Shown here: positions 1,671 through 16,804 of the stretch, one piece after another
Layout of the letters: each line of letters begins with the position of its first letter
Numbering within the stretch: position 1 is the stretch's first letter
Source: Phyllobacterium zundukense
GTDB taxonomy: Bacteria > Pseudomonadota > Alphaproteobacteria > Rhizobiales > Rhizobiaceae
DNA: 64,000 bases
Direction of reading: 5' to 3'
NCBI RefSeq assembly: GCF_002764115.1
Contig: NZ_CP017940.1
Location: 1,462,501-1,526,500, forward strand
Position numbers and translations under genes: made by a program
The notes under the pieces: generated by a model
Databases searched by the model: none
Told to the model about the DNA's origin: nothing
Seen by the model: the letters and a program-made list of their open reading frames with translations, nothing else

Positions 1671-2255
1671 ATGAAAGCGGCAATCGACAAACACAACCAC
1701 TGGTACGTCGTCAGGACGAACGTTAAGTGCGAAGAGAAAGCCTCGGAGAATATTCGTAAAGCCGGATACGACGTCTTTTACCCGCGCCGCAGGGTCGAGG
1801 TGAAGAACCGGCGAACGCACATCTATACGACGCGAGAAAGCGCCCTGATGCCCCGCTATTTGTTCGTGGGGCTACCTCCGGCCGACAGAAACTTCTTCAA
1901 AGTTCGCAACGGCGACGGTGTAGAATGCATCCTCGGCGTGGGCGGCCGTCCGGCTCGCATTTCAGCCGATCATGTCGAAGCAATCTACCTCGCAGAAGTC
2001 GAAATGCAGTTCGATGATACCCGCGCCGCGCGCATCCATCGAAAAAAGGAAGCGAGATCGAAAAAGGCGACGACGGAAACGCAGTTCCCGAAAGGTAGGG
2101 GCATCCTGGTAACGGACAATATGAACCCGTTGGCAAGGTTTGGAGGCGTTGTTCAGGAGATCACCAAATCGGGAAGGGTCATAGCCCTTGTCGAACTTTT
2201 CGGGCGCATGACGCCTGTTGAATTCGAGGCTAGGCAGCTTAGTCCTGCGGCATAA
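1671..2255 (+). CDS. NusG-like transcription (anti)termination protein
   Basis: A 194-residue protein with the NusG plan. An NGN domain covers about residues 9-105 (start HWYVVRTNVKCEEKA, then YDVFYPRR and LMPRYLFVG), a basic linker follows (HRKKEARSKK), and a KOW-like C-terminal domain covers ~140-190 (PLARFGGVVQEITKSGR, VALVELFGRMTPVEF). Family members bind RNA polymerase and control elongation or termination; specialised paralogues act on single operons. The position after early phage genes, and formerly before packaging genes, suggests an antiterminator for late phage transcription. Unusually, its 3' end occurs again as decayed copies at about 4240, 5333, 6846, 8405, 12468 and 15255. This copy is intact. 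The phage-antiterminator role is inference. Confidence 0.88.
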   Translation: MKAAIDKHNHWYVVRTNVKCEEKASENIRKAGYDVFYPRRRVEVKNRRTHIYTTRESALMPRYLFVGLPPADRNFFKVRNGDGVECILGVGGRPARISADHVEAIYLAEVEMQFDDTRAARIHRKKEARSKKATTETQFPKGRGILVTDNMNPLARFGGVVQEITKSGRVIALVELFGRMTPVEFEARQLSPAA

Positions 2256-2330
2256 GACCGACGCAATGTCCGCAGTGCTAGCCTGCGCGTCCGGAAAAAG
2301 CGCCCGGTGGGTCGCCAGCTACGCCCGCAA

Positions 2331-2813
2331 TCAATAGTAGGATGAGACGCACGCCCGTCGCGGACCGTAGTAGGGCTGGAACGTGTTGTCGTAAGCCCTG
2401 TAGGACCGGTAGCGGGCATAGCACCAGCGCGTGTGTGCGTTGCCGCCATAATAGACCTGGCGGTAATTGCGTGGCGCGTAGTAGCGCGGACGGTAATAGG
2501 TCGGCCCGTAATAGCCCTGATCGTAGTAGCTGGGGCCATAATACCTCGGCTGCGCCAGCAATCCGCCGATGATTACGCCAGTCGCGAGCCCGCCGAGTGC
2601 CAATGCCCAATCGTCGTTACCATTGTGGTGTCCATGCCCGCGGTAGCCTCGATAGTATCCACGGTTGTAACCGCCGCGGTAACGCCTGTACTGGACCGGC
2701 TGCGCCTCTTGGACTTCGATCTTCGGCACGGCAACGGTGGGAAACGCCATGGCCGGCGGGGCGCTCGTCAGCGCCGTCACCAGCGACAGGGCAAAGATTG
2801 CTAACCTTTTCAT
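2331..2813 (-). CDS. BA14K family exported protein
   Basis: A 160-residue protein with a clear signal peptide (MKRLAIFALSLVTALTSAPPAMA), a Tyr/Arg/Gly-rich middle, one hydrophobic segment (ALALGGLATGVIIGGLLA) and a C-terminal module WCYARYRSYRAYDNTF...GPRRAC, which is the BA14K signature first described in Brucella. The start at 2813 is chosen over an upstream in-frame ATG at 2861 because GGAAAGGTGA precedes it and the signal peptide begins there. The low-complexity YYGPxYY repeats are typical of this family. BA14K proteins are cell-envelope, lectin-like and immunoreactive in Brucella; their role elsewhere is uncertain. It is convergent to the NusG-like gene and is the first cargo gene after it. 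Confidence 0.82.
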   Translation of the reverse strand: MKRLAIFALSLVTALTSAPPAMAFPTVAVPKIEVQEAQPVQYRRYRGGYNRGYYRGYRGHGHHNGNDDWALALGGLATGVIIGGLLAQPRYYGPSYYDQGYYGPTYYRPRYYAPRNYRQVYYGGNAHTRWCYARYRSYRAYDNTFQPYYGPRRACVSSYY

Positions 2814-3084
2814 TGGCTTCACCTTTCCTCTGCAGTGCTCCGCGTCGAAGACGGCGCGCAAGGACGCTGCAGCCCTTTAAATGCTCTGCGCAATTTTACT
2901 CCAAAATCGATTTTGACTCGAGAAATTATGCGTTAGCAGGAAAGCTTTCTTTCAAAATTGGTCCATTCGCGGTGTCGCATCGCCGTGCGCGAAAAACGCA
3001 TTTTGTTGATCGCGAACGCTCGTATCGTTGGCCCTCTTTCCATCCGTTGCGATCCTTCTGCAGGTGAGGCCGCTTTGGGCCCAA

Positions 3085-3145
3085 TTCCGGTCATTAACAG
3101 CAGGTGCATCAAATGGCCGGATTCGACCCATTGCGGAAATTCCCT
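3085..3145. repeat. Intergenic repeat shared with 11737-11790
   Basis: The stretch containing TTAACAGCAGGTGC and TTCGACCCATTGCGG recurs with few changes at 11737-11790 and partly near 4365 and 5690. It resembles a widespread rhizobial intergenic sequence that often yields false short ORFs. It lies in the 400-base gap 2814-3215, where no gene is visible. Confidence 0.6.
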
Positions 3146-3215
3146 AGAGAAATGACGGGCGACTTGGGGGAACGAATTGCCTATGTTCAAGCTAACTTTT
3201 CGGGGAGCCAAGGTA

Positions 3216-4175
3216 ATGATGAGGCTAGGCATTCTGTTCATCTATCTGAGCATGGGGCCATTTTACGCCTCGGCCGCATTCGCTTTGGAAGACAGGTTGG
3301 TGGTCAATTCTCGCACGCTTGCTGAGGACGATTTTCTGCGTGGCAACACCACGGCGGGAACACCGGTCACTCTGAGTGGCAATCTAAGTGGACCAGAGGG
3401 CGTCAACAAACTGCCGGTCGTCATCTTGCTGCACGGCACGGATGGACCTGGGAGCGGCGCGGTATGGGCTTGGGAGCGGTTTCTCAATAGCATCGATATC
3501 GCAACGCTGAGCCTCGACAGCTACACGGGACGGAGTCTCACGCAGGCCTCAACTGATCAATCTCTGTTCGGTCAATTCACGCAAATCTATGATGCTTATA
3601 GAGCCGCCGATGCGCTGGCGGACCACCCAAAGATTGACACCACACGGATTGCGCTGATGGGGTTTTCCCGTGGCGGCAATGCAGCGCTATATTCGGCAAT
3701 GACACGCTTCCAGAAAACGTTCGGCCCGTCCAAGGGTCGCATAGTGGCGCATTTACCATTTTATCCCGCATGCAATTTCCAGCTTGTCGGGGAATTGGAG
3801 GTTGCCGACGCACCAATCCGCGAATTCCACGGCACCGATGACGACTGGACACCTGCCGCGCCTTGTCGCTCCTATATTGATCGCCTGGCTGCGGCTGGCG
3901 AGGACGCGACAATGACAGAGTACAAGGGCGCAATTCATGCATTCGACAGCCCACGCAACCCGGCGCGTTTCACTGATTCCGACAATCAAACCTCGCGAAA
4001 TTGCATGCGTACGGAGGTGGACGGGAAGCTCCTCAATGCCGCGACTGGCCGCCCTTTCAGCTATTCCGACGCCTGTGTCGAATTCGGTCCGAGCTCACAG
4101 TACAACGATGCTGCCGCAACGGCGGCACAGGCTGCTGTGAAGGCGTTCCTGGAAGAGGTCTTTGGAAGAAACTGA
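3216..4175 (+). CDS. Exported dienelactone hydrolase-like alpha/beta hydrolase
   Basis: About 319 residues with an N-terminal signal peptide (MRLGILFIYLSMGPFYASAAFA). The alpha/beta-hydrolase marks are visible: an oxyanion region VVILLHGTDGPG, the nucleophile elbow GFSRGG (Ser), an acid in GTDDDWTP and a catalytic His in GAIHAFDSP. This is the dienelactone-hydrolase/acyl-peptidase-like layout; the substrate cannot be told from sequence. The protein is predicted periplasmic. The start is set at the tandem ATGs 3216/3219, where the signal peptide begins, rather than 3177. A remnant of the NusG-like 3' end follows about 65 bases downstream, so it forms one cargo unit with the BA14K gene. Confidence 0.8.
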   Translation: MMRLGILFIYLSMGPFYASAAFALEDRLVVNSRTLAEDDFLRGNTTAGTPVTLSGNLSGPEGVNKLPVVILLHGTDGPGSGAVWAWERFLNSIDIATLSLDSYTGRSLTQASTDQSLFGQFTQIYDAYRAADALADHPKIDTTRIALMGFSRGGNAALYSAMTRFQKTFGPSKGRIVAHLPFYPACNFQLVGELEVADAPIREFHGTDDDWTPAAPCRSYIDRLAAAGEDATMTEYKGAIHAFDSPRNPARFTDSDNQTSRNCMRTEVDGKLLNAATGRPFSYSDACVEFGPSSQYNDAAATAAQAAVKAFLEEVFGRN

Positions 4176-4239
4176 ACTCCGCGTTATTGGCGTGGTGGCC
4201 ATCGCACTCAATGCCGGCTTTGAGAGCATCGAACTCCGT

Positions 4240-4362
4240 ACGGTTACAGCTTCGGACCATCCTTGCGGCAGAGTGATCGCGCTTTGGACGGATGACGCCA
4301 GTTGAATTCGAGGCTAGGCAGCTTAGTCCTGCGGCATAAGACCGACGCAATGTCCGCAGTGC
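4240..4362 (+). pseudogene. Decayed 3' end of the NusG-like gene (copy 2)
   Basis: Bases ~4290-4362 match the last 49 coding bases, the stop and the downstream flank of the gene at 1671-2255 with only a few mismatches (GTTGAATTCGAGGCTAGGCA is shared). Upstream of that, a shorter relic of the KOW region (GAGTGATCGCGCTT) is joined with about a dozen bases missing. No open frame remains. It separates the hydrolase gene from the DnaB-like gene. Confidence 0.8.
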
Positions 4363-4429
4363 GCCAACACCGGTCATTGGAAGAGCGACTGCCGGGATGC
4401 TCCTGCGGCATGGCGGCAGTCGATCATGC

Positions 4430-5143
4430 TTAGGCCACGTCCTGGAGCTGGGCCTCGCCGTTGTGCAAGAAGCACGCTTTGGAGAAGAGCCCTAAATCGA
4501 CGAGGTTGGGCAGGCGAACATCCCGCAGATCCGGCAGGCGCTTGCTTTCAGGATCAAAAGACCGGTCAATCTGGGAGATGAACCCGAGTATAACGCCGGT
4601 CTTTCTGGCGAAAGCGCCAAGCGCAAGAACTTGCTCTGAAAGCGCAGGCTTGCTTCGCTGCTGGTCGAGTACCTGCAGGTAGTCGATTACGGCAACTGTT
4701 CCTCTCTCCGATCCCGACAAATGGCGGATGATGTATTCCGCGCTGATTTCATTGGACGTGACAATCTCCAGCGTATCGCCAATACCGGAAGGGGCTTTTT
4801 CCAAAGACCGGATGTGTTTTCTTGCCTGTTGTTCAGTGAATTCCAACGTAAAGAACACCGCTCTCCGCTCATCTCGGGCGGCGTCGAGCAAAAGCTGAAG
4901 TCCAAGCTTGGTCTTGCCATGGCCGGGGCGTCCAGCCACTAACAGCAGATCACCGTCATCCAGACGGGATAATATTGTCTCCGAAAGCGCCGCTGCCGCG
5001 ATTTGCGACGAAAGTAAACTCCATCGCGCAAATCCCTCCTCACGAGCGATTTGATCCAGTGCGTCGTGCAGAGGGACACCATTGTGTCGAGCCATGAGTT
5101 TGGCGCGACGTTTCAATTGGAATATGGGGGCAGAAAGCTTCAT
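4430..5143 (-). CDS. DnaB-like RecA-fold ATPase (short helicase-like protein)
   Basis: A 237-residue protein. Residues ~1-45 form a helical N-terminal module (ALDQIAREEGFARWSLL) also seen before other domains in rhizobial proteins. Residues ~60-235 are a RecA-like core with Walker A GRPGHGKTK, a Walker B-type AVIDYLQVL and a sensor-like FISQIDR, in the order found in the DnaB C-terminal domain. It is far shorter than a replicative DnaB (~450-500), with no primase-binding N-domain. The start ATG at 5143 has GGAGG seven bases upstream. It lies between two NusG-like remnants as a single-gene cargo unit. The ATPase fold is well supported; helicase activity and any defence or phage role are inference. 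Confidence 0.75.
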   Translation of the reverse strand: MKLSAPIFQLKRRAKLMARHNGVPLHDALDQIAREEGFARWSLLSSQIAAAALSETILSRLDDGDLLLVAGRPGHGKTKLGLQLLLDAARDERRAVFFTLEFTEQQARKHIRSLEKAPSGIGDTLEIVTSNEISAEYIIRHLSGSERGTVAVIDYLQVLDQQRSKPALSEQVLALGAFARKTGVILGFISQIDRSFDPESKRLPDLRDVRLPNLVDLGLFSKACFLHNGEAQLQDVA

Positions 5144-5332
5144 CAAAGAACCTCCATTCCGAGCCAGAAACGCAACCCCTCCTTATGCGACGCTCGAACA
5201 GATGGTTCGACGATGATGATCTCACCCCGTATGTGCGATACTTCCCCAAAAGGAGGGGGGAGGCGTGGGCCAAGCCTGTGGAGCGGAGACTAGCGGTCCG
5301 CGTGATTCGTCGCAAGCATCAATGGCCGCAAA

Positions 5333-5682
5333 GGGCCAACACCAGACTTTGGGCCCGGTGGAGAACAGCCAGCTCGTGCGCGAATTGTCGGAGCGATCTA
5401 TCTGGCCAGAATCGACCTGCAGCTCGATGACACCTCGCATTCACCGCAAGGAAGAGGCGAGAAGGAACAAGGCAAAAACAGAAAGTGAGTTCTCTCCTGG
5501 TCTATCTTTTTCGCCACCGAAGGAGGGAACCCCTTTTCCACGTTCGGCGGTGTAGTTGATACAGTTACAAACTCCGGCCGAGTGATCGCGCTTATTGATA
5601 TTTTCGGACGCATGACGCCAGTTGAATTCGCGCCGAGACAGCTCACCCCTGCTGCATAGACCGACTTAGTTTCTGCTTCGCA
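5333..5682 (+). pseudogene. Decayed C-terminal half of the NusG-like gene (copy 3)
   Basis: This copy covers linker plus KOW. In one frame HRKEEARRNKAKTESEF can be read, and further on GRVIALIDIFGRMTPVEF in another, so at least one frameshift and a stop have accumulated. It ends with a stop and GACCGACTTAGT-type flank like the other copies. By eye it is much closer to copy 4 (6846-7245) than to the intact gene, so it came from a divergent relative or is an older duplication. Its N-terminal NGN domain is missing. Confidence 0.8.
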
Positions 5683-6104
5683 GATTTCAGTCATTGACAG
5701 CAACCGGCTGTGAGAGCAGACCTTTAACTGGCTGACACGCTTGAGCGCTTGCAGGCGTGAGGTTGGGGCCAAGTGTTTGACGCTGACGGGAGAGCTTTTC
5801 CTCGCTACTGGCGCAGACAGGGAGTATATTTGTTTGTTGACGCTGAGACACAGAGGCCCAGCGACAGAGAACTCAAGACACCTTTTAAATTGGGTGCGTT
5901 CTGTATTGACACTTACTTGGCACGCTTAAGTTTTCTGTCCTGCCTAAATCGTCCTTTGCGTAATTCTGACCGGAATCTTTATTGCTTAGTTTGGAGGGGC
6001 AGCGTTCCGATGCAGATCATCCAGAGCTGCGGCACACGCTCATTATCCTAAACGGGCGCACAGCTGCATTCCGGGAACGTTGAAATCGAAAGGAGGACTC
6101 ACCC
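5683..6104. other. Gap with no supported gene
   Basis: About 420 bases between the NusG-like remnant and the cupin gene. Short open frames here have no ribosome-binding site or protein-like composition. The first 30 bases repeat the flank seen after other remnants (TCAGTCATTGACAGCAACC). AGGAGG at about 6092 serves the cupin gene. Confidence 0.5.
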
Positions 6105-6722
6105 ATGAAACCGCGATCCCTCAGCGCGCGCCGTATTGGCGTGCTCATGTTCTCACTGTGTGCTTTCGGGTTGATGACGTCAGCCTCGATGACCGCTGAA
6201 AGCAAATTCGTCGTCGAGCTGGTGGTTGAAAAAAAGGTGAAAGAACTGCCGTCCGCACCGTTGTACTGGCGTGTGGAGAATTTCCCGACGCTGACGCAGG
6301 CCCAGGGCGCTGTAGGCCCGACCTCGCTTGCGGCTGAGGTCGCGGGCAAGGTATGGCTGTTCACGCTAGGACCGAAGGATGGCTCTACGCCCGGTGGAAC
6401 CAAGGTCGCCGAGATCGGACCCCTTTCGCCGATCAGCGCGAGCGAGTATTTGCTGCGCGTCAACCGCGCCGGTGGAGCGCCCGGTGCCAAGTCGTCCATC
6501 CATACACATCCAGGACCGGAGGTCTTCTATGTACTGGCCGGCAAGCTCGGTCAGAGAACGCCCCACGGCGTGGCCTATGCCGAAGCCGGCACGACCATGG
6601 CCGGACACGGGGCGGACACGCCGATGGAAGTGTTCAGCGCCGGTACAACCGATCTCAATCAGCTGGCCATCTTCGTGGTAGACGCGGATCGGCCGTTCTC
6701 GTCCCCGGCCACCCTCGACTGA
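6105..6722 (+). CDS. Exported cupin-domain protein
   Basis: A 205-residue protein with an N-terminal hydrophobic signal (RIGVLMFSLCAFGLMTSASM). The cupin core lies at ~110-190: HTHPGPEVFYVLAGKL is the first cupin motif with the metal-binding His and Glu, and the second motif region GHGADTPMEVFSAG follows. It is likely a small periplasmic beta-barrel metal-binding protein; the ligand or enzymatic activity cannot be deduced. The start at 6105 has AAAGGAGG ten bases upstream. It is flanked on both sides by decayed NusG-like copies 3 and 4, so it forms a single-gene cargo unit. Confidence 0.8.
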   Translation: MKPRSLSARRIGVLMFSLCAFGLMTSASMTAESKFVVELVVEKKVKELPSAPLYWRVENFPTLTQAQGAVGPTSLAAEVAGKVWLFTLGPKDGSTPGGTKVAEIGPLSPISASEYLLRVNRAGGAPGAKSSIHTHPGPEVFYVLAGKLGQRTPHGVAYAEAGTTMAGHGADTPMEVFSAGTTDLNQLAIFVVDADRPFSSPATLD

Positions 6723-6845
6723 GGCGAAGTTTCGTGGGGTGGCGCGAGTGTCTGGTACGATCTAAGGCGGCACCCCAGCGAAGATCCGCATGGTTCCAAT
6801 AGTTGGATTTTCGCTTACATGCATCATCGAATGTACTTCCGCTCA

Positions 6846-7245
6846 CCACCCATTGCTGAGGTTCGAATCTGACGCGGGCGAACGGCAGCAATGGGGCCAA
6901 CACCAGACTTTGGGCCCGGTGGAAAACAGCCAGCTCGTGCGCGAATTGTCGGAGCGATCTATCTGGCCAGAATCGACCTGCAGCTCGATGACACCTCGTA
7001 TTCACCGCAAGGAAGAGGCGAGATCGAAAAAGGAGCAAACTCAACGTGAGTTCTCTCCTGGTCGATCAATTTTCGTCACCGAAAGAGGAAACCCTTTTGC
7101 CACGTTCGGCGGTATCGTCGATGAAGTTACAAATGCCGGCCGAGCGATAGCACTTATTGATATTTTCGGGCGCTTGACGCCAGTTGAATTCGAGCCGAGA
7201 CAGCTCACCCCTGCGGCATAGGCCGATTTAGTATCCGCTTCGCGC
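6846..7245 (+). pseudogene. Decayed C-terminal half of the NusG-like gene (copy 4)
   Basis: The best preserved remnant. From about 6985 to the stop at 7221 it reads HRKEEARSKKEQTQREF, then FATFGGIVDEVTNAGRAIAL and FGRLTPVEFEPRQLTPAA without interruption, so the linker and KOW domain are intact while the NGN domain is lost. A frame from 6790 reads through it, but the N-terminal part of that frame does not look like NusG. It is nearly the same as copy 3 at the DNA level. Whether a free KOW domain is made is unknown. Confidence 0.8.
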
Positions 7246-7288
7246 CAGCAATGATCTTTGTTCTTCGGAGGCCTGTTCCCCAACCCAA

Positions 7289-8209
7289 TCAGTATTTTGA
7301 GGGGACGTAGAGTTCCGGCGGCAGGACCTTTCGCTCGTAATCGGGATTGAACACGCGCTCGGGCAGGCTGATGTCTTCGTGCGGAACATCCTCATAGGGA
7401 ATTTGTTGAAGCAGATGATCCATGCAATTCAGGCGGGCGCGCTTCTTGTCATTGCCCTCGACGATGTACCACGGCGCTTCGGGAATATTGGTGCGGGCGA
7501 AGGTCTCTTCCTTGGCCTTGGTGTAGGCTTCCCAGCGCACGCGCGATTGCAGATCCATGGGTGACAGTTTCCACTGCTTTAAAGGGTCGTGGATGCGCAC
7601 AAGAAATCGCATCTGCTGCTCTTCGTCGGTGATAGAAAACCAATACTTCACCAACCGGACGCCGGAGCGCACCAGCATGCGCTCGAATTCGGGTACATCA
7701 TGGAAAAATTCTGCAACCTGGTCTTCGGTGGCAAATCCCATGACCCGCTCGACGCCCGAGCGGTTGTACCATGAGCGGTCGAAGAGCACGATCTCGCCGC
7801 CGGCAGGCAGATGCGGCACATAGCGCTGGAAGTACCACTGGGTCTTTTCGCGGTCGGACGGGGCGGGCAGCGCCACCACCCGCACAATGCGCGGATTCAG
7901 CCGCTGGGTGATGCGCTTGATTACACCGCCTTTGCCGGCAGAATCGCGCCCCTCGAAGATCACGACGACCTTCTCTTTGTGATAAGCGACCCAGTCCTGC
8001 AGCTTGATCAGTTCCGCCTGCAGCGAAAGCAAGGCGCGGAAATAGTCTATGCGTGGCATCGATGGTGGATGCGCCTTGCGATAGATCCTGCGGATTTCCT
8101 CGGACAGCGCCGGCTCGGAAAGTTCGAGTTCGTAGTCCTCGTCGAGCGTATCGGCGAGCTCTGCTTCCAGCCAATCCGAATTTTCGACCTTGTCCTTCGA
8201 ATAAGTCAT
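7289..8209 (-). CDS. ppk2: Polyphosphate kinase 2
   Basis: A 306-residue PPK2-family protein. Walker A EGRDSAGKGG lies at residues 86-95, the Walker B-like LFDRSWYNRSGVERVMGF at ~142, and the lid/basic region MRFLVRIHDPLKQWKLS further on, all in the order of single-domain PPK2 enzymes that transfer phosphate between polyphosphate and nucleoside di- or monophosphates in the cytoplasm. Length is normal for the family. Class (ADP, GDP or AMP specificity) cannot be set by eye. The start ATG at 8209 follows a GGAGTGGTGCG-type site. It is flanked by NusG-like copies 4 and 5. Polyphosphate metabolism fits the stress flavour of this cargo region. Confidence 0.93.
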   Translation of the reverse strand: MTYSKDKVENSDWLEAELADTLDEDYELELSEPALSEEIRRIYRKAHPPSMPRIDYFRALLSLQAELIKLQDWVAYHKEKVVVIFEGRDSAGKGGVIKRITQRLNPRIVRVVALPAPSDREKTQWYFQRYVPHLPAGGEIVLFDRSWYNRSGVERVMGFATEDQVAEFFHDVPEFERMLVRSGVRLVKYWFSITDEEQQMRFLVRIHDPLKQWKLSPMDLQSRVRWEAYTKAKEETFARTNIPEAPWYIVEGNDKKRARLNCMDHLLQQIPYEDVPHEDISLPERVFNPDYERKVLPPELYVPSKY

Positions 8210-8404
8210 CGCACCACTCCAAATTTGGCCAACTGTGCTCCCGTTTCATCCATTTATGCCATAGTCGCATGACGGTAATCTAACGTTTCGTCGCGATCAA
8301 AACCGTGCGGTCGATCCAGCGGCTCGAAGGCAGGCTCCGCCGGCAGCATAGTCCTGAGGCCTGTGGCGGCCAAAACGGGCGCGAGTTACCGATTCGACTC
8401 TTGA

Positions 8405-8500
8405 TTGTGACAGAAACATTGCGGATATGTGACGCCCGTTGAATCGAGCCGAAACCGCTCAGCCCTGCGGCATAGACCGATGTAATGTGCGCTTCGGGTC
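8405..8500 (+). pseudogene. Short decayed 3' end of the NusG-like gene (copy 5)
   Basis: Only the last ~60 bases are recognisable (TGACGCCCGTTGAATCGAGC, then CAGCCCTGCGGCATAGACCG) with the usual downstream flank. It is the shortest and most altered copy. It lies in the 355-base gap between ppk2 and the HNH gene; the remainder of that gap shows nothing else. Confidence 0.7.
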
Positions 8501-8564
8501 GATCTCGACGAGGCAGTTTATCGTCTGTTAGAAAGAAACACGCAATCTGAGGGAGAAGTGGGGA

Positions 8565-9362
8565 ATGCAGCAATACGCTGTTGTCGTAGAAAATGACATA
8601 ACGCAGTGGGAAGATCAAACAGGGTCTCGCTACCACTTTCCAAAACGATACGCTCGGTTTCTGACACCAGGAACTAGGCTCATTCACTACAAAGGACGCT
8701 TGCGCGATCCAAGGTTTCTTCCGAAGCGCCTATCTCCGGAGCCTCATTATTTTGCGTTCTCAATCGCAGGTGAACATACGCCTGATCCAGATAGCGATAA
8801 GGGAGACCTCTTTGTCGATGTCCTACAACACCGGCCGTTCGATGAAGCTGTACCCCATCGCATCGATGGCGAGACTTTAGAGACAATTCCAGAGAGCCGA
8901 AAGGACAATTTTTGGCGTGACGGCGTCCGACCTGCAACCCTATCACTTTTCGAGACGGTCGGAAGGCTTGCACGGATCGTTTTCGATGAGGGCGAAACTG
9001 AGGTCACTGAGGATATCGACTTAACAACCACGATGCAGGAGGGTGGCAAAAAGATAGTCTATGGTACCCGGTACGAACGAAGACCGGAGCTGCGCGCATT
9101 GGCAATAAAAATTCACGGAACAGTCTGCTTTGCATGCGAAGCCGACTTGGAGAAGGTGTACGGTGAGCTAGCTGCGGGTTACATCCAGATCCATCACAAA
9201 CGTCCCCTCTATGTATCAGGCCCGACTATCGTAAACGCGGAAACGGATCTAGTTCCTCTATGCCCTAATTGCCATGGGATCGCTCACCTAGGTAATAAGC
9301 TGAGGTCGGTCAACGACATTAGGTCGCTACTCGGAAAACCTGCCGTAAGCTACGGCGACTAG
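8565..9362 (+). CDS. HNH endonuclease with PUA/EVE-like N-terminal domain
   Basis: A 265-residue protein. The N-terminal ~100 residues (YAVVVENDITQWED, RLIHYKGRLRD, YFAFSIAGE) resemble the PUA/EVE-like modules that read modified bases in McrA-type enzymes. The C-terminus is an HNH nuclease with two Cys pairs, CFAC (188-191) and CPNCH (233-237), and the catalytic IHH at 209-211. Such fusions act as modification-dependent restriction enzymes, so anti-phage defence is a reasonable inference. It starts at 8565 after GAGGGAGAAGTGG and is bounded on the left by NusG-like copy 5. No partner methylase is nearby, which fits a type IV-like rather than a classical restriction system. Confidence 0.82.
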   Translation: MQQYAVVVENDITQWEDQTGSRYHFPKRYARFLTPGTRLIHYKGRLRDPRFLPKRLSPEPHYFAFSIAGEHTPDPDSDKGDLFVDVLQHRPFDEAVPHRIDGETLETIPESRKDNFWRDGVRPATLSLFETVGRLARIVFDEGETEVTEDIDLTTTMQEGGKKIVYGTRYERRPELRALAIKIHGTVCFACEADLEKVYGELAAGYIQIHHKRPLYVSGPTIVNAETDLVPLCPNCHGIAHLGNKLRSVNDIRSLLGKPAVSYGD

Positions 9363-9365
9363 TGC

Positions 9366-9545
9366 AGAGATTCGATTCCGTGAGGTCGACAAGGTCAACT
9401 CGACATAGGGTTGCAAATAGCGTCGAAGTGCGCCGAGTTTCGAAATCGCGCTTTTGGTGGCTTCCTTGATCTCCTCGTTGGAATCGAGAGTGAGCATATG
9501 GTTATCGGCAAGATCGACCGGCGCCGCGGCGATCTCTTGTTCTCG
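9366..9545 (-). pseudogene. Possible fragment of an unidentified gene
   Basis: A minus-strand open stretch reads PVDLADNHMLTLDSNEEIKE, followed by a helical segment. It is protein-like but has no start with a ribosome-binding site, and it is squeezed between the HNH and thermonuclease genes. It looks like the C-terminal scrap of a lost gene. Weak support. Confidence 0.25.
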
Positions 9546-9556
9546 CCAGCCAGCGG

Positions 9557-10090
9557 CTAGCACCAAGGCTGGCGCCTACCAGTCCACCGCCGGGCCAGAT
9601 TGCGTTCGATAAGGGTCTCTCCAACGTCTTTGCCATTGACCGCCACAAGGGCAAGCGTCCGTCCATATTGGTCGATCATGCGCCTGGTTTTGGGGTCGCC
9701 GCGTGTAATCTGTATTTCCTTACCATCGAGCAATCGTTTCAGGGCGGGTTTGGCTTCGAGACCGCGCGCAAGTTCGCTCTCACATTTGGCACCGCCAATT
9801 TCAGGTGTGTCGATGTTGGCGAGGCGGATCTTCTCCCGGTTGAGCCAGATCGTGTCGCCATCGATGACATAGAGCTGTTGGCCATTTGCGAGGCTTGCGT
9901 GTGCGCTTTCCATAGGTTCGGGGAAAACAGCAAGATAGAGGAAGCACATCGCTACTCCAAGGACCGGCAGCGCCCAGCGTTGTACGTGCCATCGCCAGGA
10001 CGAGTACCGGCGGTACTGTCGCCGTTGTTTCTCCGAATCCGCTGGCGGCCTTGTCCATTCGCTTGGTATTACTTTCAGCTTGTCACTCAT
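9557..10090 (-). CDS. Membrane-anchored thermonuclease (SNase) family protein
   Basis: A 177-residue protein with a basic cytoplasmic N-terminus, one membrane segment at ~38-56 (WALPVLGVAMCFLYLAVF) and a staphylococcal-nuclease domain at ~70-172. Visible motifs are YVIDGDTIWL, KIRLANIDTPEI with the catalytic Arg/Asp, and the DQYGRTLALV and GETLIERNLAR segments. It probably faces the periplasm and cleaves DNA or RNA in a Ca-dependent way. The start ATG at 10090 is chosen at MSDKLKV; 10117 is an in-frame alternative. It is convergent with the HNH gene. Similar small thermonucleases are common on rhizobial chromosomes and plasmids, so its presence alone does not prove a defence role. Confidence 0.88.
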   Translation of the reverse strand: MSDKLKVIPSEWTRPPADSEKQRRQYRRYSSWRWHVQRWALPVLGVAMCFLYLAVFPEPMESAHASLANGQQLYVIDGDTIWLNREKIRLANIDTPEIGGAKCESELARGLEAKPALKRLLDGKEIQITRGDPKTRRMIDQYGRTLALVAVNGKDVGETLIERNLARRWTGRRQPWC

Positions 10091-10117
10091 GCACGGGCCC
10101 TTTTGTGAGGGCTTCAT

Positions 10118-10516
10118 ATTGGCACCTGTTCAATAAAATATGGATTGAGCGAAATGCTAAGATTGAAATTAATACAGGTTCCGATTCACGATTTGCGACC
10201 GGTCAAACACATCCCAACCAATAGGTTGCAGCAGATCGAGGTTTATGACGGCGCATAACCATCAGCGGCCCATCGCGTTCTCACAAAATGCGAACTCAGT
10301 TTCCTGTGCCGAGTATATCGATAAAATATTTCCAATCAGTTCATACGAGTGAGTTAAAGGACACGTAAGGGTTTCCCACTCCATCACCACAAACACCGGG
10401 TCTCGCACCAATAAGGACGTGCGAGATCGATCGCTGATGCCATCTGACTCCTTGCCGTAGATTGCGGCGCGGATCGATTAAGCGCAAACTGGGCCAGGCA
10501 AATAGGGAGGCTTACT
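10118..10516. other. Gap with no supported gene
   Basis: About 400 AT-leaning bases between divergent genes. It presumably holds both promoters; I saw no convincing sigma-70 or EcfG match. AGGGAGG at ~10504 serves the NTF2-like gene. Confidence 0.4.
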
Positions 10517-10933
10517 ATGACTGATCGAAGCGAACTCGAAAGCACCGTCCAGACGATCTATAAGGCTCGCCAGGATAATGACATTGATGCTTTGATGGCG
10601 TTTTTTGATCCCGCCTGCAGCTTTCGCATCGTCGGAAGCGACCGGTTAGGGTCAATGACACAGACAGTGGATGATTCAGAATCCCTGCGCATCGCTATGA
10701 CACGCTTTATGGACAACTGGGATTTCTCCAAGCTCAAAACCACCAGCCTTCATGTTGACGGCGACACTGTGTTTGCTCATCGTTCCGGGCAAGTCCGTTT
10801 TATCCCCTCAGACGTGTGGAACAATACCGAGTTCATAGACAAGTTCACCTTCAAGGACGGACTGGTGGTCGATCTGGCGGAGTTCATCGATACGTTGCAA
10901 GTGGCGGAAACGATGGGCCTGGTCAAATCGTGA
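10517..10933 (+). CDS. NTF2-like (SnoaL-type) superfamily protein
   Basis: A 138-residue protein with the cone-shaped NTF2-like pattern: helix TVQTIYKARQDNDIDALMAFF, then alternating strands ACSFRIVG, TVFAHRSGQVRF and FIDKFTFKDGLVVDLAEFID. This fold hosts small isomerases, hydrolases and ligand-binding proteins; no catalytic set can be assigned. The start at 10517 has AGGGAGG upstream. It has no obvious operon partner. Confidence 0.75.
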   Translation: MTDRSELESTVQTIYKARQDNDIDALMAFFDPACSFRIVGSDRLGSMTQTVDDSESLRIAMTRFMDNWDFSKLKTTSLHVDGDTVFAHRSGQVRFIPSDVWNNTEFIDKFTFKDGLVVDLAEFIDTLQVAETMGLVKS

Positions 10934-11007
10934 CGGCGTAGCAATATTCGCTCGGATGGCGAAATGGCCGACACGACTTCCCGCCATGGATACCTATTCA
11001 TCAAATT

Positions 11008-11030
11008 GGAGCAGTCTGGTAGCGCGCTTC
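11008..11030 (+). repeat. Fragment of tRNA(CAU)-like sequence (D-arm region)
   Basis: The 20-odd bases GGAGCAGTCTGGTAGCGCGC match bases 9-31 of the tRNA at 19134-19210 almost exactly, then diverge. It is one of several partial copies of that tRNA in 11-20 kb. Confidence 0.55.
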
Positions 11031-11048
11031 ACCCAGAAGCTGCCGCAG

Positions 11049-11336
11049 CTACCGAGCGAGTATTAACACACTGGAAAAAACGACAACGCATGCCACAGCA
11101 ATTAGAAAATAGAATAGCCTTGTGGATATGCGATCGAGCCAGACACGTGGTGGAGGAGGCGGGTCGAAATCTTCGACCAGCACTTTCAGTTTGTGTTCCG
11201 GATCAGCCCATTTCACGCCTCTAAAATTAACAATTTGGTCGCGCGACTGCATCGCGAGTTTCTTTAGGCGCGTTACTTCGTCGAATTGATATCGACGCGC
11301 ACCTCGCCAGTTGGCCTGATAATCCTCTTTCTCCAT
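11049..11336 (-). CDS. Small C-terminally membrane-anchored hypothetical protein
   Basis: About 95 residues: a charged N-terminal part, a Pro-rich turn (DFDPPPPPRVW) and one membrane segment at the C-terminus (FYFLIAVACVVVFSSVLIL). The topology suggests a tail-anchored inner-membrane protein. No family recognised. An ATG two codons further upstream (11342) is also possible. Confidence 0.55.
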   Translation of the reverse strand: MEKEDYQANWRGARRYQFDEVTRLKKLAMQSRDQIVNFRGVKWADPEHKLKVLVEDFDPPPPPRVWLDRISTRLFYFLIAVACVVVFSSVLILAR

Positions 11337-11479
11337 AGCCACAAGATAGCCGACGCTGTCTAAGCCCAGGTTTACTTGACCACTAAAATCTTAGCGGCAT
11401 GTATTGGTCTGTCCTTCGGGTCCTCGAAATTAGGTAATTATCCCCAACTCTTGAAATTAATCCTTTGTTTCAAGAAGCA

Positions 11480-11578
11480 AATCAGATGCGCAAAGGTGAT
11501 TTGCGGCTGACTGGCGGACCAAGGGAAAGGGAACACTCGCCGAGTACATGGGAAGAGCTTCACGAGTTCTCGACCGGC
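11480..11578. repeat. About 100-bp direct repeat R1, copy 1
   Basis: Contains GATTTGCGGCTGACTGGCGG followed by an A/G-rich stretch and GAAGAGCTTCACG. It is highly similar to 14572-14678 and 16681-16793. In one frame all three can be read as (D)LRLTGGP..REHSP..WEELH, so it may be a relic of coding DNA. Confidence 0.75.
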
Positions 11579-11736
11579 CAGAGGGCGGTCACGTTCGTTC
11601 GTGGCAGCGAGGTAGACGTCAATCGCCCGCCCGACCCCATTCTAAATCTAATGGCAGTCGCGCCCGCGCTGCTAGTAACGCATGCCAGGCTGGATTGCCA
11701 ACAACCAATCAAGATGAATGTCCGCTTTGCGCCAAT

Positions 11737-11790
11737 TCCAGTCGTTGACAGCAGGTGCAATGGCCGGGTTTGACCCATTGCAGACATTTG
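11737..11790. repeat. Intergenic repeat shared with 3085-3145
   Basis: TTGACAGCAGGTGCAATGG followed by TTTGACCCATTGCAG repeats the sequence at 3085-3145. Open frames through it are not credible genes. Confidence 0.6.
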
Positions 11791-11854
11791 GTGCCTCCGG
11801 CACGTGACGACCGCTCATGACTGCCTTTTACGTGGGGTGAACCTTACGCAAGCT

Positions 11855-12316
11855 TCAACGGACCCATCTGACGAAGCGCACGATCACTTCTTCGGCGATG
11901 ACCATGACGGTGACGACGATAATCAGCGGCACCACCCCGTGCAGCATGCCTTCGAAGCGAACCTTATCCCCGAACACAAAGGTGATCGCCTCCAGGATCA
12001 CGAACTTGGATAGGAACAGCACCACCCATGCGCTGAAGAATCGCATGAACTTCATGAAGGCACCTTGCCTTGCCTTGAAGAACGCGGCGACATGATGCTC
12101 GATAGCGATCGTCCCCTTCAGAAGGGCCTGCAACAAGATGGCGGCGAGCAACGACCAGCTGAAGGAAGCGACCGTGACGCTGTCCGAAAATTCATCGAAC
12201 AGGTTTAGGACCACGAGGTCGATCAGGGCTCCAAAGAGGTAGCGGATGATCAATCGCTGACGGTCCGTTGGCATTTCGGCCGTGGCCGGCAGAAAACCGT
12301 GGATTTTATCAGCCAT
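11855..12316 (-). CDS. Integral membrane hypothetical protein
   Basis: A 153-residue protein with about four hydrophobic segments (LFGALIDLVVLNLF, WSLLAAILLQALL, FFSAWVVLFLSKFVILEAI, LIIVVTVMVIAEEVIV). The start ATG at 12316 is preceded by GAGGGGGAAT. No family recognised with certainty. It stands alone between repeats and NusG-like copy 6. Confidence 0.65.
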   Translation of the reverse strand: MADKIHGFLPATAEMPTDRQRLIIRYLFGALIDLVVLNLFDEFSDSVTVASFSWSLLAAILLQALLKGTIAIEHHVAAFFKARQGAFMKFMRFFSAWVVLFLSKFVILEAITFVFGDKVRFEGMLHGVVPLIIVVTVMVIAEEVIVRFVRWVR

Positions 12317-12467
12317 AATTCCCCCTCTGAAAACACTCTTCGAGCGTGCGCTACTGTATGGTGGGCGTCAATGGGACATATCGGGGTTTACCCTCGTCCA
12401 AAGTGCGGGAATGTCCAGGGGGATACGAAGAGACGCCGCCTGAGTCCGATCTTGAATGCCCGTTTTC

Positions 12468-12860
12468 CCACCCATTGCTGCCGGGCGATCGTCAGCAACG
12501 GGCCAACACCGGACTTTCGATCCACGGAGAAAGGCCCGCTCATGCCGCGATTATAGAAGCGATCTATCTCGCGAAGTCGACCTGCAGTTCGATGATCCCC
12601 GCGTTGCTCGCGTTCACCGCAAGGACGAGGCGAGATCAAAAAAGGCGAAAACAGAAACTGAGTTCTCTCTGTCGATCAATTTTAGTCACCGAGAGAGGAA
12701 AGCCTTTTGCTACGTCCTGCGGTGTCGTCGATGCAGTTACAAATGCCGGCCGGGTGATCGCGCTTATTTATATTTTCGGACGCATGACGAACGTTGAATT
12801 CGAGCCGAGACAGCTCAGCCCAGCGGCATAGACCGACGTGATCTACGCTTCGCGCCAACA
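12468..12860 (+). pseudogene. Decayed C-terminal half of the NusG-like gene (copy 6)
   Basis: Starts with the same CCCATTGCTG flank as copy 4 and runs through the linker (AAGGACGAGGCGAGATC) and KOW region to AGCGGCATAGACCGACG. Frameshifts are present: the linker reads HRKDEARSKKAKTETEFS in one frame, while GRVIALIYIFGRMTNVEF is in another. It is closest by eye to copies 3 and 4. It separates the membrane-protein gene from the DUF1254 gene. Confidence 0.8.
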
Positions 12861-13104
12861 CCCCGCTATCGAACAAGCGCACGGGCCGAGGGATTAAGCC
12901 GTCCTCTACCCTAAGTTGCCCCATGTAACAGTTACGTACTTGCAGTTTAGCAGGTCCGATGTTCACGCTGGCAAAACGTCACATCTGCATCCCTCTTGCG
13001 GAACTGGGTAATGAACTGATCGAGCTCATGTTATCGAAAGGGACGGACACAGGTGGACTCGACGGCTTTAGGATTTCTTTTCACTACAACGAGGGGGGTA
13101 ACTT

Positions 13105-14544
13105 ATGGTTTCGCGTCGTACTGTATCACTTGGAGGACTGGGCCTTTTTGCCACGAGCGCATTTGTCCCTACGGCAAGCGCCTTGGATGGCCTCGCTACT
13201 GACCTGATCGAGGGCACCGATGAATTCGCGCTGGCCGTCGATGCCTATATTTATGGGTATCCTCTCGTCACCATGGAAATGACCCGCCGCGTCATCACCA
13301 ATGTCGCTGAGCCCAAGGGAACCAAGGCTCCAATGGGGCAGATGATCAAGGTCCGCGAATATCCCAACGCACAGTTCCGCGATGTAACGGCACCGAACGC
13401 TGATACGCTCTACACGACTGCATTCTTCGACGTTGGCCAGGAACCTTGGGTGCTCAGCCTGCCCGCCATGGGCGACCGCTATGCGCTTTTCCCGATGCTT
13501 GACGGCTGGACGACGGTGTTCGAGGTTCCAGGCAAGCGCACCACCGGCACTGGCGCGCAAAAATATGTGATCACCGGGCCAGGTTGGGAGGGCAAGCTTC
13601 CCAAGGATGTCGTGGAATACAAGTCGCCGACGAGCATGGTCTGGCTTCTTGGCCGCATCTACTGCAGCGGGACGCCGGAGGATTATAAAGCCGTGCATGC
13701 GTTGCAGGATGACGTCAAGCTCGTTCCCCTAAGCGCCTACGGCAAAGAGTGGACGCCGCCGAAAGGCAAGGTGGATCCCGCGATCGACGTCAAGACAGCG
13801 GTGCGCGATCAGGTCAACCGCATGAATGCTGCCGAGTATTTCACCCTGCTTGCAGAGTTGCTTAAAACCAATCCGCCCAGCGAAGCTGACGAACTGATGG
13901 TCGAGAAGTTGGCGCGGATCGGCATCGTGCCCGGACAGGATTTCGACAAGAGCAAGTTCGACCCGTCGTTCGCAAAGCGGGTTCCCCAAGTCGGATTTGA
14001 TCGCATTATGCTGCACTACAAGTTCAGCGATGGCGACGTGACAGACATCAATGGTTGGGGCTTCACGACCAAGACCGGCATCTATGGCACAAACTACATT
14101 CAGCGCGCACTGGTTACGGCCATAGGCCTTGGTGCCAACCGGCCCCAGGATGCTGTTTATCCCCTGTCGGCAAAATACGATGGCGGAATGATCAAACGAG
14201 CCTACGAGGGGTCAGAGAACTATGTTTTGACGTTCAAAAAGGGAGCAATGCCGCCGGTAGGCGGCTTCTGGTCCTTGACCATGTATGACGAGAATTACTT
14301 CTTCGTCGAGAACCCGATCAATCGCTACTCGATCAGTGCCCGTCAAGATCTAAAAATGAATGCGGATGGGTCTACTGACCTGTTCATTCAGAACGTCAGC
14401 CCTGGCGCGGAGAAAGAAGCCAACTGGTTACCTGCACCGAAAGACAAGTTCGTCCTGATGATGCGTCTTTATTGGCCAAAGGAAAGCAACCCGTCGCTGC
14501 TTGACGGCTCGTGGGTTCTGCCCCCTGTGAAAAAGGCGACATGA
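13105..14544 (+). CDS. DUF1254/DUF1214 family exported protein
   Basis: A 479-residue protein with a signal-like N-terminus (RRTVSLGGLGLFATSAFVPTASA, possibly Tat-type with the RR pair). The DUF1254 part lies at ~40-180 (AYIYGYPLVTMEMTRR, APNADTLYTTAFFD) and the DUF1214 part at ~330-460 (VYPLSAKYDGG, GFWSLTMYDENYFF). This two-domain arrangement is well known in Proteobacteria; members are periplasmic and of unknown activity. Start 13105 has GAGGGGGGTAAC upstream. Length fits the family (~450-490). It is a single-gene cargo unit after NusG-like copy 6. Confidence 0.9.
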   Translation: MVSRRTVSLGGLGLFATSAFVPTASALDGLATDLIEGTDEFALAVDAYIYGYPLVTMEMTRRVITNVAEPKGTKAPMGQMIKVREYPNAQFRDVTAPNADTLYTTAFFDVGQEPWVLSLPAMGDRYALFPMLDGWTTVFEVPGKRTTGTGAQKYVITGPGWEGKLPKDVVEYKSPTSMVWLLGRIYCSGTPEDYKAVHALQDDVKLVPLSAYGKEWTPPKGKVDPAIDVKTAVRDQVNRMNAAEYFTLLAELLKTNPPSEADELMVEKLARIGIVPGQDFDKSKFDPSFAKRVPQVGFDRIMLHYKFSDGDVTDINGWGFTTKTGIYGTNYIQRALVTAIGLGANRPQDAVYPLSAKYDGGMIKRAYEGSENYVLTFKKGAMPPVGGFWSLTMYDENYFFVENPINRYSISARQDLKMNADGSTDLFIQNVSPGAEKEANWLPAPKDKFVLMMRLYWPKESNPSLLDGSWVLPPVKKAT

Positions 14545-14571
14545 CGAAACTTCCGGCTAAGAGGGGGAATC

Positions 14572-14678
14572 AAACAGTATATGCGCAACAGGCGATTTGC
14601 GGCTGACTGGCGGACCTAGGAACAGGGAATACTCGCCGAGTGCAGGGGAAGAGCTTCACGGCTTCCCGCCGTGGAAAT
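14572..14678. repeat. About 100-bp direct repeat R1, copy 2
   Basis: Shares GCGATTTGCGGCTGACTGGC and the following CGCCGAGTGC and GAAGAGCTTCACGGCTTCCC blocks with the copies at 11480 and 16681. Copies 2 and 3 are closer to each other and also share the upstream CAGTATAT. Confidence 0.75.
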
Positions 14679-14713
14679 TATATTGTCCACATTTAGGGGA
14701 GCTTTCCAGGCCG

Positions 14714-14941
14714 TCACTCTCCATAAAGCAGCAGCGCTGCGCCAATAACCAAAAGGATTATGGCGGGCAAATTTTGCTTCAAGCCGAGAAACCGCAAGCC
14801 CTGTCTATCTGGTTCTAACGATACTGAGTTTTCATTGTCAGACGATTTAGGCGGTTGACTTAGTTTGCGATGACGAAGCGCCACCCAGACCGAGTAGAGC
14901 ACCCCCGCTATCAGAAGAATCGCACCAATCAGCTTTAACAT
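14714..14941 (-). CDS. Small membrane protein, two TM segments
   Basis: A 75-residue protein with an N-terminal segment (LIGAILLIAGVLYSVWVAL), a polar middle and a second segment (AIILLVIGAALLLYGE). It follows the DUF3606 gene by 8 bases on the same strand, so the two form an operon under the EcfG-like promoter at 15169-15193. Function unknown; a stress-linked envelope role is inferred from context. Confidence 0.6.
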   Translation of the reverse strand: MLKLIGAILLIAGVLYSVWVALRHRKLSQPPKSSDNENSVSLEPDRQGLRFLGLKQNLPAIILLVIGAALLLYGE

Positions 14942-14949
14942 CGGTTATC

Positions 14950-15132
14950 TCATCCTGAGCTCGCAAGCTCAGTTTCAATCTTCTTTCGACTGCCTCCATG
15001 CTTGGCGATTAACTCTCGCGCCCGATTCTTGCTCAGGTCGTATTTCGTCATGAGATATTCGACCTCATAGTCCTCTCTGGACGAGACTTTTGAGCGATCA
15101 CGGTTATCCTGTTTTGATTTGTCGTCTGCCAT
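14950..15132 (-). CDS. DUF3606 family protein
   Basis: A 60-residue acidic/basic protein (MADDKSKQDNRDRSKVSSRE then DYEVEYLMTKYDLSKNRARE). It has the DUF3606 layout, small proteins common in rhizobia and often in general-stress regulons. Start chosen at MADDK (15132). It is first in a two-gene operon with the membrane protein at 14714. The promoter upstream has GGAAC-N16-TGTT. Confidence 0.75.
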   Translation of the reverse strand: MADDKSKQDNRDRSKVSSREDYEVEYLMTKYDLSKNRARELIAKHGGSRKKIETELASSG

Positions 15133-15168
15133 TTTGAGCACACCTCGGTTTTGCCAGCTAACCTGGAA

Positions 15169-15193
15169 AACAGTGTTCAGTCATTTTCGTTCC
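15169..15193 (-). promoter_or_regulatory. EcfG-type general stress promoter (GGAAC-N16-TGTT)
   Basis: On the minus strand GGAAC (15189-15193) is followed after 16 bases by TGTT (15169-15172), 37 bases before the DUF3606 start. The known EcfG consensus is GGAAC-N16/17-CGTT, so this has one change in the -10. Its -35 abuts a tRNA relic at 15196. Confidence 0.6.
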
Positions 15194-15195
15194 AT

Positions 15196-15229
15196 GTCGG
15201 AGTGCAGCAGTCTGGTAGCTCGCTTGGCC
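15196..15229 (+). repeat. 5' half fragment of the tRNA(CAU)-like sequence
   Basis: CGGAGTGCAGCAGTCTGGTA and GCTCGCTTGGC match the first ~33 bases of the tRNA at 19134-19210 with one change, then the match ends before the anticodon loop. It is directly followed by NusG-like copy 7. Confidence 0.7.
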
Positions 15230-15254
15230 GGGTCGCTACTCGATATGATAAAAC

Positions 15255-15480
15255 CAAGTCCACCGCAGGGAAGAAGAAAAGACCGAGAAGGAAACAACGG
15301 TCATGCGCTATCCAGCCGGATCAAGCGTGTTCGTTACCGACTGGGTCAGCCCATTTGCAACGTTTGGCGGTATCGTTGAAGAGATCACAAAAGCAGGCAG
15401 GGTTGTTGCGCTGATGGAATTGTTTGGGCGGATGACACCGGTGGAATTCGAGCCCAAGCAGCTCACGCCTGCATAAGGCC
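15255..15480 (+). pseudogene. Decayed C-terminal part of the NusG-like gene (copy 7)
   Basis: A relic of the basic linker (GGGAAGAAGAAAAGACCGAG) leads into a well-kept KOW domain: VFVTDWVSPFATFGGIVEE, then AGRVVALMELFGRMTPVEF and the terminal FEPKQLTPA stop. Its sequence differs from copies 2-6 and from the intact gene, suggesting an independent origin. No start or NGN domain is present. Confidence 0.75.
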
Positions 15481-15548
15481 GCTAAATATACAAAACCGAT
15501 TACACAGCGCACCTTTCGGTGGCTGTGCAACCGAAGTCATTTCGCGCC

Positions 15549-16550: not shown

Positions 16551-16680
16551 CAGCTCGAAAGGCCAACAGGGCGGTAATATTTTTCTTTGGTAATGGAACA
16601 AAATCGGCGATGATGTGTGTGCCGTTGCTGCTAGGCAAATATCCCCATATCAGTGAAAATAATCCTTTCACATACCACGC

Positions 16681-16793: not shown

Positions 16794-16804
16794 TGCACCA
16801 ATTC

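Follow-up and report, generated by a model that had tools for sequence, protein, structure and literature searches.

A prophage cargo array in Phyllobacterium zundukense with relics of both edges of a variable nusG-to-tRNA gap

The 64,000 nt of Phyllobacterium zundukense DNA analysed here (contig NZ_CP017940.1, hereafter the window; it corresponds to C1:1462501-1526500 of the genome denoted G000, G and L names standing for the genomes and loci compared) contain an array that opens with an intact phage nusG-like gene; behind it, cargo genes are interspersed with six degenerate copies of the 3′ part of that gene. We consider it probable that a temperate phage's cargo (moron) site has here become overgrown, in several rounds of accretion through unequal or illegitimate recombination. 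What can be read from the sequences themselves is a gap of variable length among relatives, relics of both edges of this gap inside the array, several joints located at relic ends or palindromes, and cargo common to the arrays of other species.

The seven nusG-derived places, already proposed in an initial annotation made from the letters alone, were recovered by self-BLAST, a repeat search, tblastn against the own genome and a nucleotide hidden Markov model (HMM). The seeds of the latter were 14 pieces, including five of the seven places (those at 4266 and 8422 were not seeds), and the BLAST matches between the copies are independent of it. The product of the intact gene, 194 amino acids long, belongs to the NusG family according to both Pfam and PHROG. 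Most of the NGN part is gone in all six copies, the initial annotation having stated that most of them lack this domain: the longest begin around codon 88, the Pfam domain covering residues 10-105. The copies at 5333, 6894 and 12500 are indeed nearer to each other (79-89% identity) than to the intact gene (67-69%; self-BLAST gives 79% for the 5333 copy, over 85 bp only), and the near-identity of the 4240 copy to the intact 3′ end was found as well, with 95% between 4283-4362 and 2199-2278. Chance likeness among the copies is excluded, and the alignments leave them homologous. The statement that every copy keeps the 3′ end and the downstream flank has to be corrected for the one at 15257, which stops at model position 341 out of 362 and has no flank.

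The initial annotation had omitted the relics of the opposite, right-hand edge of the gap, i.e. four D4 repeats, tRNA-Met pieces (at 11007, 15195, 16801 and 19679) and a scrap of the metallopeptidase gene. At 15228/15257, half of a tRNA-Met lies 28 nt ahead of nusG relic c6, so that a right edge is joined to a left edge; together with the other right-edge relics, this junction indicates that cargo-gap segments from several related phages are strung together in the array. D4 begins within the last codons of nusG in L082, and the same ~16 nt of nusG end open ten further copies at nine loci (L071, L084, L085, L086, L087, L088, L104, L052 and the window at 16632 and 11431) out of 19 copies compared, L082 included; the eight others (L072, L073, L074, L075 twice, L076, L079 and the window at 14545) do not have this start.

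As to its nature, D4 is a conserved non-coding element of ~160 nt, lying between the antiterminator gene and the late block and existing in two forms (e.g. L082:10560-10690). It is a candidate late-promoter or antitermination region, and its conserved inverted repeat, AAATCA...TGATTT, may be an operator. A structured RNA was considered and rejected: four single-strand folds were no better than shuffles, and there was no compensatory pair in 16 sequences. A degraded tRNA-Met-like sequence is found at 19678-19749, ~470 bp past the intact tRNA-Met (Rfam tRNA, 33.6 bits; no ARAGORN call).

The gap was compared between the window and 19 related loci, among which L081 and L083 repeat L073 and L074. 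Related loci from named genome records belong to Phyllobacterium in nine cases out of ten, the tenth (30% identity) being from Chryseosolibacter. Among the 15 distinct related loci with a nusG 5′ part, a D4 match is present downstream in 14 (as short pieces only in L078; L077 has none within the DNA examined) and an ARAGORN tRNA-Met in 10. The distance from the nusG stop to the tRNA is 0.16 kb in L082, 0.37 in L071, 0.60 in L088, 1.03 in L074, 1.16 in L084 and L087, 1.97 in L075, 2.3 in L076, 3.0 in L073, 4.5 in L079 and 16.9 in the window; with such a range among relatives, the gap is a variable cargo (moron) site. By definition, a moron is cargo that separates two phage segments lying side by side in a related phage (PMC3029335), and this is the situation of the array, the segment being absent between the phage genes of L082, where tRNA-Met follows nusG so closely. 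The cargo lies on both strands, which is consistent with its carrying its own promoter and terminator. A separate case of disruption is seen in P. brassicacearum (L077:10001-11758): a nusG of the same family is split by ~1.06 kb of other DNA, with gene parts on both sides.

In a further scan, 9,755 bp of 5′ and 4,583 bp of 3′ phage backbone were compared with the window array and 24 other stretches (E <= 1e-3). The 5′ matches come from the last ~730 bp only (nusG and 123 bp just upstream), and there are three 3′ matches, of which those in G009 and in the window concern the metallopeptidase gene. A FastTree analysis of 43 pieces, from which the one at 8422 was left out because of its low score and shortness, revealed two relic lineages within the window array: 15257 groups with L051, L074 and L082 (support 0.999; its pairing with L051 has only 0.425), and 4266, 5333, 6894 and 12500 are placed with relics from other islands and no intact gene, inner nodes being weak and the pieces short. 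The matches, almost all from the gap edges, and the foreign lineage of 15257 support the proposal of the initial annotation that the array was built serially by recombination with related prophages, the nusG-tRNA gap being the cargo site of this phage group.

Relics are not confined to the window. They occur in 10 out of 20 Phyllobacterium genomes (G000, G002, G007, G008, G009, G010, G015, G017, G018 and G019; G019 was missing from one of the searches, which spanned 19 genomes). Phyllobacterium sp. A18/5-2 (L104) has them too. Of the 37 relic pieces in the stretches analysed, the right end falls at model position 357-361 in 20 and the left end at 1-4 in 10, both being the case in 5; the pieces are partly orthologous (L184, L186 and L187, for instance, are one place), and because the HMM was cut at those shared ends, it is the raw flanks that carry the claim of common ends. 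Elsewhere in the own genome, relics are found at 1.218-1.222 Mb and 3.7095-3.727 Mb. The island at 3.70-3.73 Mb holds nusG relics and a D4 piece; beside it are a tRNA-Leu(CAG) and two weak, below-cut-off tyrosine-integrase pieces (C1:3700188-3700630), and from this combination it is probably a decayed integrative element.

The array lies in a prophage of ~56.6 kb (C1:1455052-1511703) that is attached at tRNA-Cys and not at nusG. A tyrosine integrase gene (PF00589, C1:1455103-1456245) adjoins the tRNA-Cys, and a 20-bp exact repeat of the tRNA end is the proposed right attachment site (attR). The alternative offered in the initial annotation, an integrase aimed at the nusG 3′ end, was therefore rejected, as integrase and repeat belong to tRNA-Cys; the suggested search for an integrase with an att core gave, besides this integrase, no PF00589 match (E <= 0.001) within 100 kb.

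The integrase gene, a recT gene (PF03837, 2.7e-33) and a DUF1376 gene lie upstream of the array; nusG closes the early module, and tRNA-Met, metallopeptidase, terminase and portal come next. The mechanism that we favour starts from the notion that the gap between the end of the early module (nusG) and the start of the late module (D4, tRNA-Met, metallopeptidase, terminase) would tolerate foreign DNA. Related phages or prophage remnants would recombine out of register in this gap, and the product would retain one working nusG and one working late start, with stretches of both parents concatenated: nusG at the left, followed by cargo A, a relic of the right edge, a 3′ relic of nusG and cargo B, with the right edge closing the series. 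In later rounds, relics and a type of palindromic repeat, here called IRU, would provide extra homology or break points, and relics would thereby be copied, truncated and mixed with the cargo next to them on either side. The order of these events is what we infer, and the palindromes may be active or passive joints. The RecT annealing protein would be a plausible agent, because its class recombines diverged sequences: Rad52-like recombinases, RecT proteins included, produce phage mosaics at diverged homology (PMC3945230).

Several observations weigh against this scenario. The common relic ends are sharper than random joints predict, and the raw flanks agree with them. Ten D4 copies at nine loci start within ~2 nt of one place in nusG. 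One of the three 3′ backbone matches is in the portal gene (L173), away from the edge, and the scan left out L051 and L104, both of which have more phage early sequence beside their nusG pieces. Finally, no phage gene was found among the three proteins scanned in the 1.21-Mb relic island; a 95-bp portal-like scrap lies ~18 kb beyond it.

A rival reading is a site-specific cassette system, in which IRU or the nusG 3′ end would be a recombinase site and cargo would be inserted, excised and inverted as in integrons or pdif modules. In dif/pdif modules, accessory genes occur in arrays near repeated short sites. We consider such a system unlikely here, even though the common relic ends (right 20/37, left 10/37) both resemble half-sites of a single palindrome type, the start of D4 in nusG is almost the same at nine loci, and cargo has been inverted (BA14K in A18/5-2, another block between G000 and G007). 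The IRU at 3067-3141 also speaks for it: three other genomes part from the window near this repeat. The BA14K side there (3067-3098) is common to G008 and G009, where a nusG relic comes next, the hydrolase gene taking that place in the window. Against it, the joint at 2279 lacks the partner needed for two-site recombination: the nusG side ends in half an IRU, and the BA14K side has neither IRU nor shared sequence, the BA14K block, which in three other genomes has one left context in common, being cut there. The left junction of c4, near 8433, has a 5-nt match (TGACG), and in the L052 alignment the PPK2 flank of G008 continues without a relic. With half-IRU, IRU-free and 5-nt-match joints, the joints are of mixed kind; edge-derived sequence is present at joints though not at every one, and IRU at several unit ends though not at all. 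Moreover, 27 of the 37 pieces lack the common left end and 17 the common right end. As for the enzyme, apart from the prophage integrase at tRNA-Cys there is no PF00589 match (E <= 0.001) within 100 kb of the array, other recombinase families not having been searched (genome-wide there are 14 matches, three of them below cut-off), and PF01797 (Y1) has no match in the genome. The latter result also led us to discard, for this genome, Y1/RAYT mobility of the palindromes; as a control, PF01797 is present in 5 out of 14 genomes.

Whether joints prefer IRU was examined numerically. The own genome has 113 IRU-type matches with up to 2 mismatches, as compared to 68 for a reversed control pattern, and 9 of the 23 matches with 0-1 mismatch are in the relic stretches at 1.21-1.23, 1.47 and 3.71 Mb. 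Alignment ends within 20 nt of an IRU core amount to 73 out of 876, at 17 of 35 cores, against a random mean of 3.3 and a maximum of 24 in 1000 draws. Once relic alignments are removed, 13 of 460 ends remain near IRU, at 7 cores (means 1.6 and 1.24, maxima 8 and 6); this test is partly circular, three of the seven cores being model seeds, and its counts are not independent, since one homologous site accounts for three of them (window 3078, L177 and L182) and window 11730 and L056 10033 are the two sides of one alignment. The result is suggestive. A bolder version, an undescribed Phyllobacterium cassette system in which host-type cargo would be inserted, inverted and reshuffled between prophages and chromosome at a dedicated joint, namely a palindrome of the TGTCCGCTTTGCGCC type that is often attached to a nusG 3′ end, seems to us more doubtful still. 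Another repeat, a short hairpin (CCCATTGCTG...CAGCAAYGGG), is seen left of c3 (6846-6893) and c5 (12471-12499) and elsewhere in the genus, e.g. after the G008 cupin gene (L130). A direct repeat around c3, CAGCAATG, resembled a target-site duplication; its left copy is part of this hairpin repeat, and it was not used.

Returning to accretion by recombination, how cargo is linked to relics across species bears on the supposition of the initial annotation that a nusG 3′ end came along with each cargo. In both the window and G008, PPK2 comes after a relic; YflT-PepSY follows one in the window and G009 (70%) and is downstream of nusG in L079 (P. sp. 2063), which shares with the window the order YflT-PepSY-Hsp20-tRNA, and SoxE cargo is flanked by relics in G008 and A18/5-2. 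In the window, BA14K stands right of the intact nusG; it is left of a relic in G008 and G009, and left of a relic and inverted in A18/5-2; a flavoprotein gene is on the left of a relic in G000 and on the right in G008. Given such varied sides and orientations, relic and cargo are not fixed pairs. No relic was found within ~1.5 kb flanks of the PPK2 relatives L106-L116 or of the DnaB-like and hydrolase relatives L118-L126 and L128 (for the DnaB-like ATPase, flanks were inspected for three loci), and beside the G008 cupin relative there is only the short hairpin repeat. These findings, the single truncated left end common to 10 of the 37 pieces and the relic-only tree group of 4266, 5333, 6894 and 12500, weak as its inner support is, all speak against one tail per cargo. 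Cargo free of remnants in related genomes, which had been named in advance as grounds for rejection, was thus found for some cargo; it weakens the idea of one tail per cargo, not that of recombination.

If one resident nusG had been duplicated in tandem and unrelated cargo had later entered between the copies, this could account for 5333, 6894 and 12500, which have both ends in common and are 79-89% alike; we judge this history very unlikely, because c6 groups with the nusG of other phages, right-edge relics alternate with nusG relics, and the cargo is different at every place. Least probable of all is that each cargo gene retains the nusG 3′ piece for a function, as promoter, terminator or antitermination site: the short relics c1 and c4 are centred on the nusG stop codon and flank, but the first cargo gene past a relic is on either strand, many relics elsewhere have no 3′ end and 17/37 fall short of the common right end.

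The features of the window are listed in Table 1. Upstream of the Hsp20 cargo gene is a ROSE RNA thermometer (18944-19033, minus strand; Rfam RF00435, 62.2 bits), by which this cargo may carry its own heat control. Past the portal gene, where head genes might be expected, there are two large autotransporter genes (921 and 1157 aa) at 25885-32286.

Table 1. Features of the window, in window coordinates
Feature	Position	Strand	Evidence or remark
DUF1376 phage gene, early module, upstream of nusG	817..1431	+	PF07120 1e-10; PHROG primosomal protein 2.4e-14
Intact phage NusG-like antiterminator gene, left edge of cargo gap	1671..2255	+	PF02357 1.9e-17; PHROG transcription antiterminator 5.9e-25
nusG 3′ flank, ends in half palindromic repeat; cargo from 2279	2256..2278	+	flank comparison
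BA14K cargo block	2279..3095	-	PF07886 1.9e-12; 91-97% identical stretches in G008, G009, A18/5-2
IRU palindromic repeat	3067..3141		hairpin z -2.68; HMM match, itself a seed; alignments end 3081/3090/3095
Dienelactone-hydrolase-like cargo	3177..4175	+	PF01738 4e-10
nusG relic c1	4266..4365	+	HMM 251-361, E 2.5e-24
DnaB-like ATPase cargo	4430..5146	-	PF03796 9.4e-15; six other genomes, 76-81% DNA identity
nusG relic c2, truncated left end of shared type	5333..5681	+	HMM 1-358, E 5.1e-102; left flank
Cupin-like cargo	6105..6722	+	Cupin_2 2.2e-4, below cut-off; 91% relative in G008
nusG relic c3, truncated left end of shared type	6894..7246	+	HMM 1-361, E 2.2e-105
PPK2 cargo	7289..8209	-	PF03976 1.6e-103
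nusG relic c4	8422..8496	+	HMM 281-357, E 1.2e-13
HNH endonuclease cargo	8565..9362	+	PHROG 8048, 8.3e-49; no Pfam match
SNase-like cargo	9557..10117	-	PF00565 2.8e-10; 80-84% relatives in L052, L072
SnoaL-like cargo	10517..10933	+	PF12680 8.2e-08
tRNA-Met 5′ piece, 23 nt, right-edge relic	11007..11029	+	96% to 19141-19163
D4 repeat, right-edge relic	11431..11572	+	81% to 16632-16780; first ~16 nt = nusG gene end
IRU palindromic repeat	11717..11788		a seed of IRU model; 96% match to own-genome 3.70-Mb island stops here
Cargo open frame	11855..12316	-	no Pfam match
nusG relic c5, truncated left end of shared type	12500..12856	+	HMM 1-361, E 3.1e-105
DUF1254/DUF1214 cargo	13105..14544	+	PF06863 2.2e-44
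D4 repeat, right-edge relic	14572..14677	+	91% to 16682-16789
DUF3606 gene	14950..15141	-	PF12244 6.3e-11; homologues in 7 distinct related loci; D4-DUF3606-tRNA order also in L073
tRNA-Met 5′ half, right-edge relic	15195..15228	+	97% to 19133-19166
nusG relic c6, other nusG lineage	15257..15482	+	HMM 113-341, E 1.2e-56
YflT-like cargo	15549..16145	-	PF11181 8.7e-10
PepSY-like cargo	16178..16498	-	PF13670 9.6e-05, below cut-off
D4 repeat and tRNA-Met 5′ piece (tRNA piece from 16801), right-edge relics	16632..16851	+	sequence matches
Phage metallopeptidase gene fragment, right-edge relic	17522..17576	+	79% to 21618-21669; 94% to L071
Second form of D4, right-edge relic	18079..18195	+	matches D4 regions of L072, L074, L075, L076, L078, L079, L082, L085, L086
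Hsp20 cargo	18474..18950	-	PF00011 8.5e-17; 95% in L079, 87% in L074
Intact tRNA-Met(CAT), right side of cargo gap	19134..19210	+	ARAGORN
Phage metallopeptidase gene	21326..21991	+	PF18894 3.7e-37; PHROG 513 labels family 'transposase'
Terminase large subunit; open frame overlaps that of portal gene	22438..23820	+	PF04466 4e-38
Proposed attR, 20-bp exact repeat of tRNA-Cys end	49184..49203	+	sequence match

Accretion of morons is an established model for phages, usually inferred by comparing phages with and without a given gene. In the array, by contrast, the joints carry pieces of both edges, so that rounds are traceable, and much of the cargo resembles metabolic or stress genes of the host. 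The nearest published case is the mycobacteriophage Island3, in which an extra gene and its neighbour (genes 67 and 68) have a common 60-bp 3′ end; its authors propose recombination via ~50-bp repeats and compare these with short conserved boundary sequences (PMC3029335). As described there, this is one event in one phage, whereas the array has six copies, relics of the opposite edge and a genus-wide distribution. Relaxed recombination between a phage and a defective prophage likewise yields mosaics of temperate phages via an annealing protein (PMC3945230), and a recT gene is present here too; unlike the mosaics reported in that work, the array consists of out-of-register concatenations instead of replacements, and the role of RecT is a proposal. 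The dif/pdif modules of Acinetobacter plasmids (PMC6449649) are similar in having accessory genes by repeated short sites, but here no recombinase is tied to the sites and at least one joint has no partner site. Short dispersed intergenic palindromes, Br-REP1 and Br-REP2, are known from Bradyrhizobium (PMC5082802); their consensus differs from IRU in a comparison by eye, and the available part of that paper does not link them to cargo arrays. Among the open-access papers listed in our searches we found no nusG-3′-end array, genus-wide joint array or Phyllobacterium prophage cargo, the NusG-paralogue literature not having been searched on its own. We thus regard the array as a variant of phage mosaicism and moron accretion, of which a single 3′-end duplication, that of Island3, had already been published.

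Its value lies in the joints: as they retain pieces of both edges, a single genome shows the successive rounds, which can then be compared between species. This makes it testable how host-type genes are loaded by phages beside their late operon, and whether annealing proteins or palindromes pick the joints. The array further points to one possible path for the movement of stress, polyphosphate and hydrolase genes among Phyllobacterium species.

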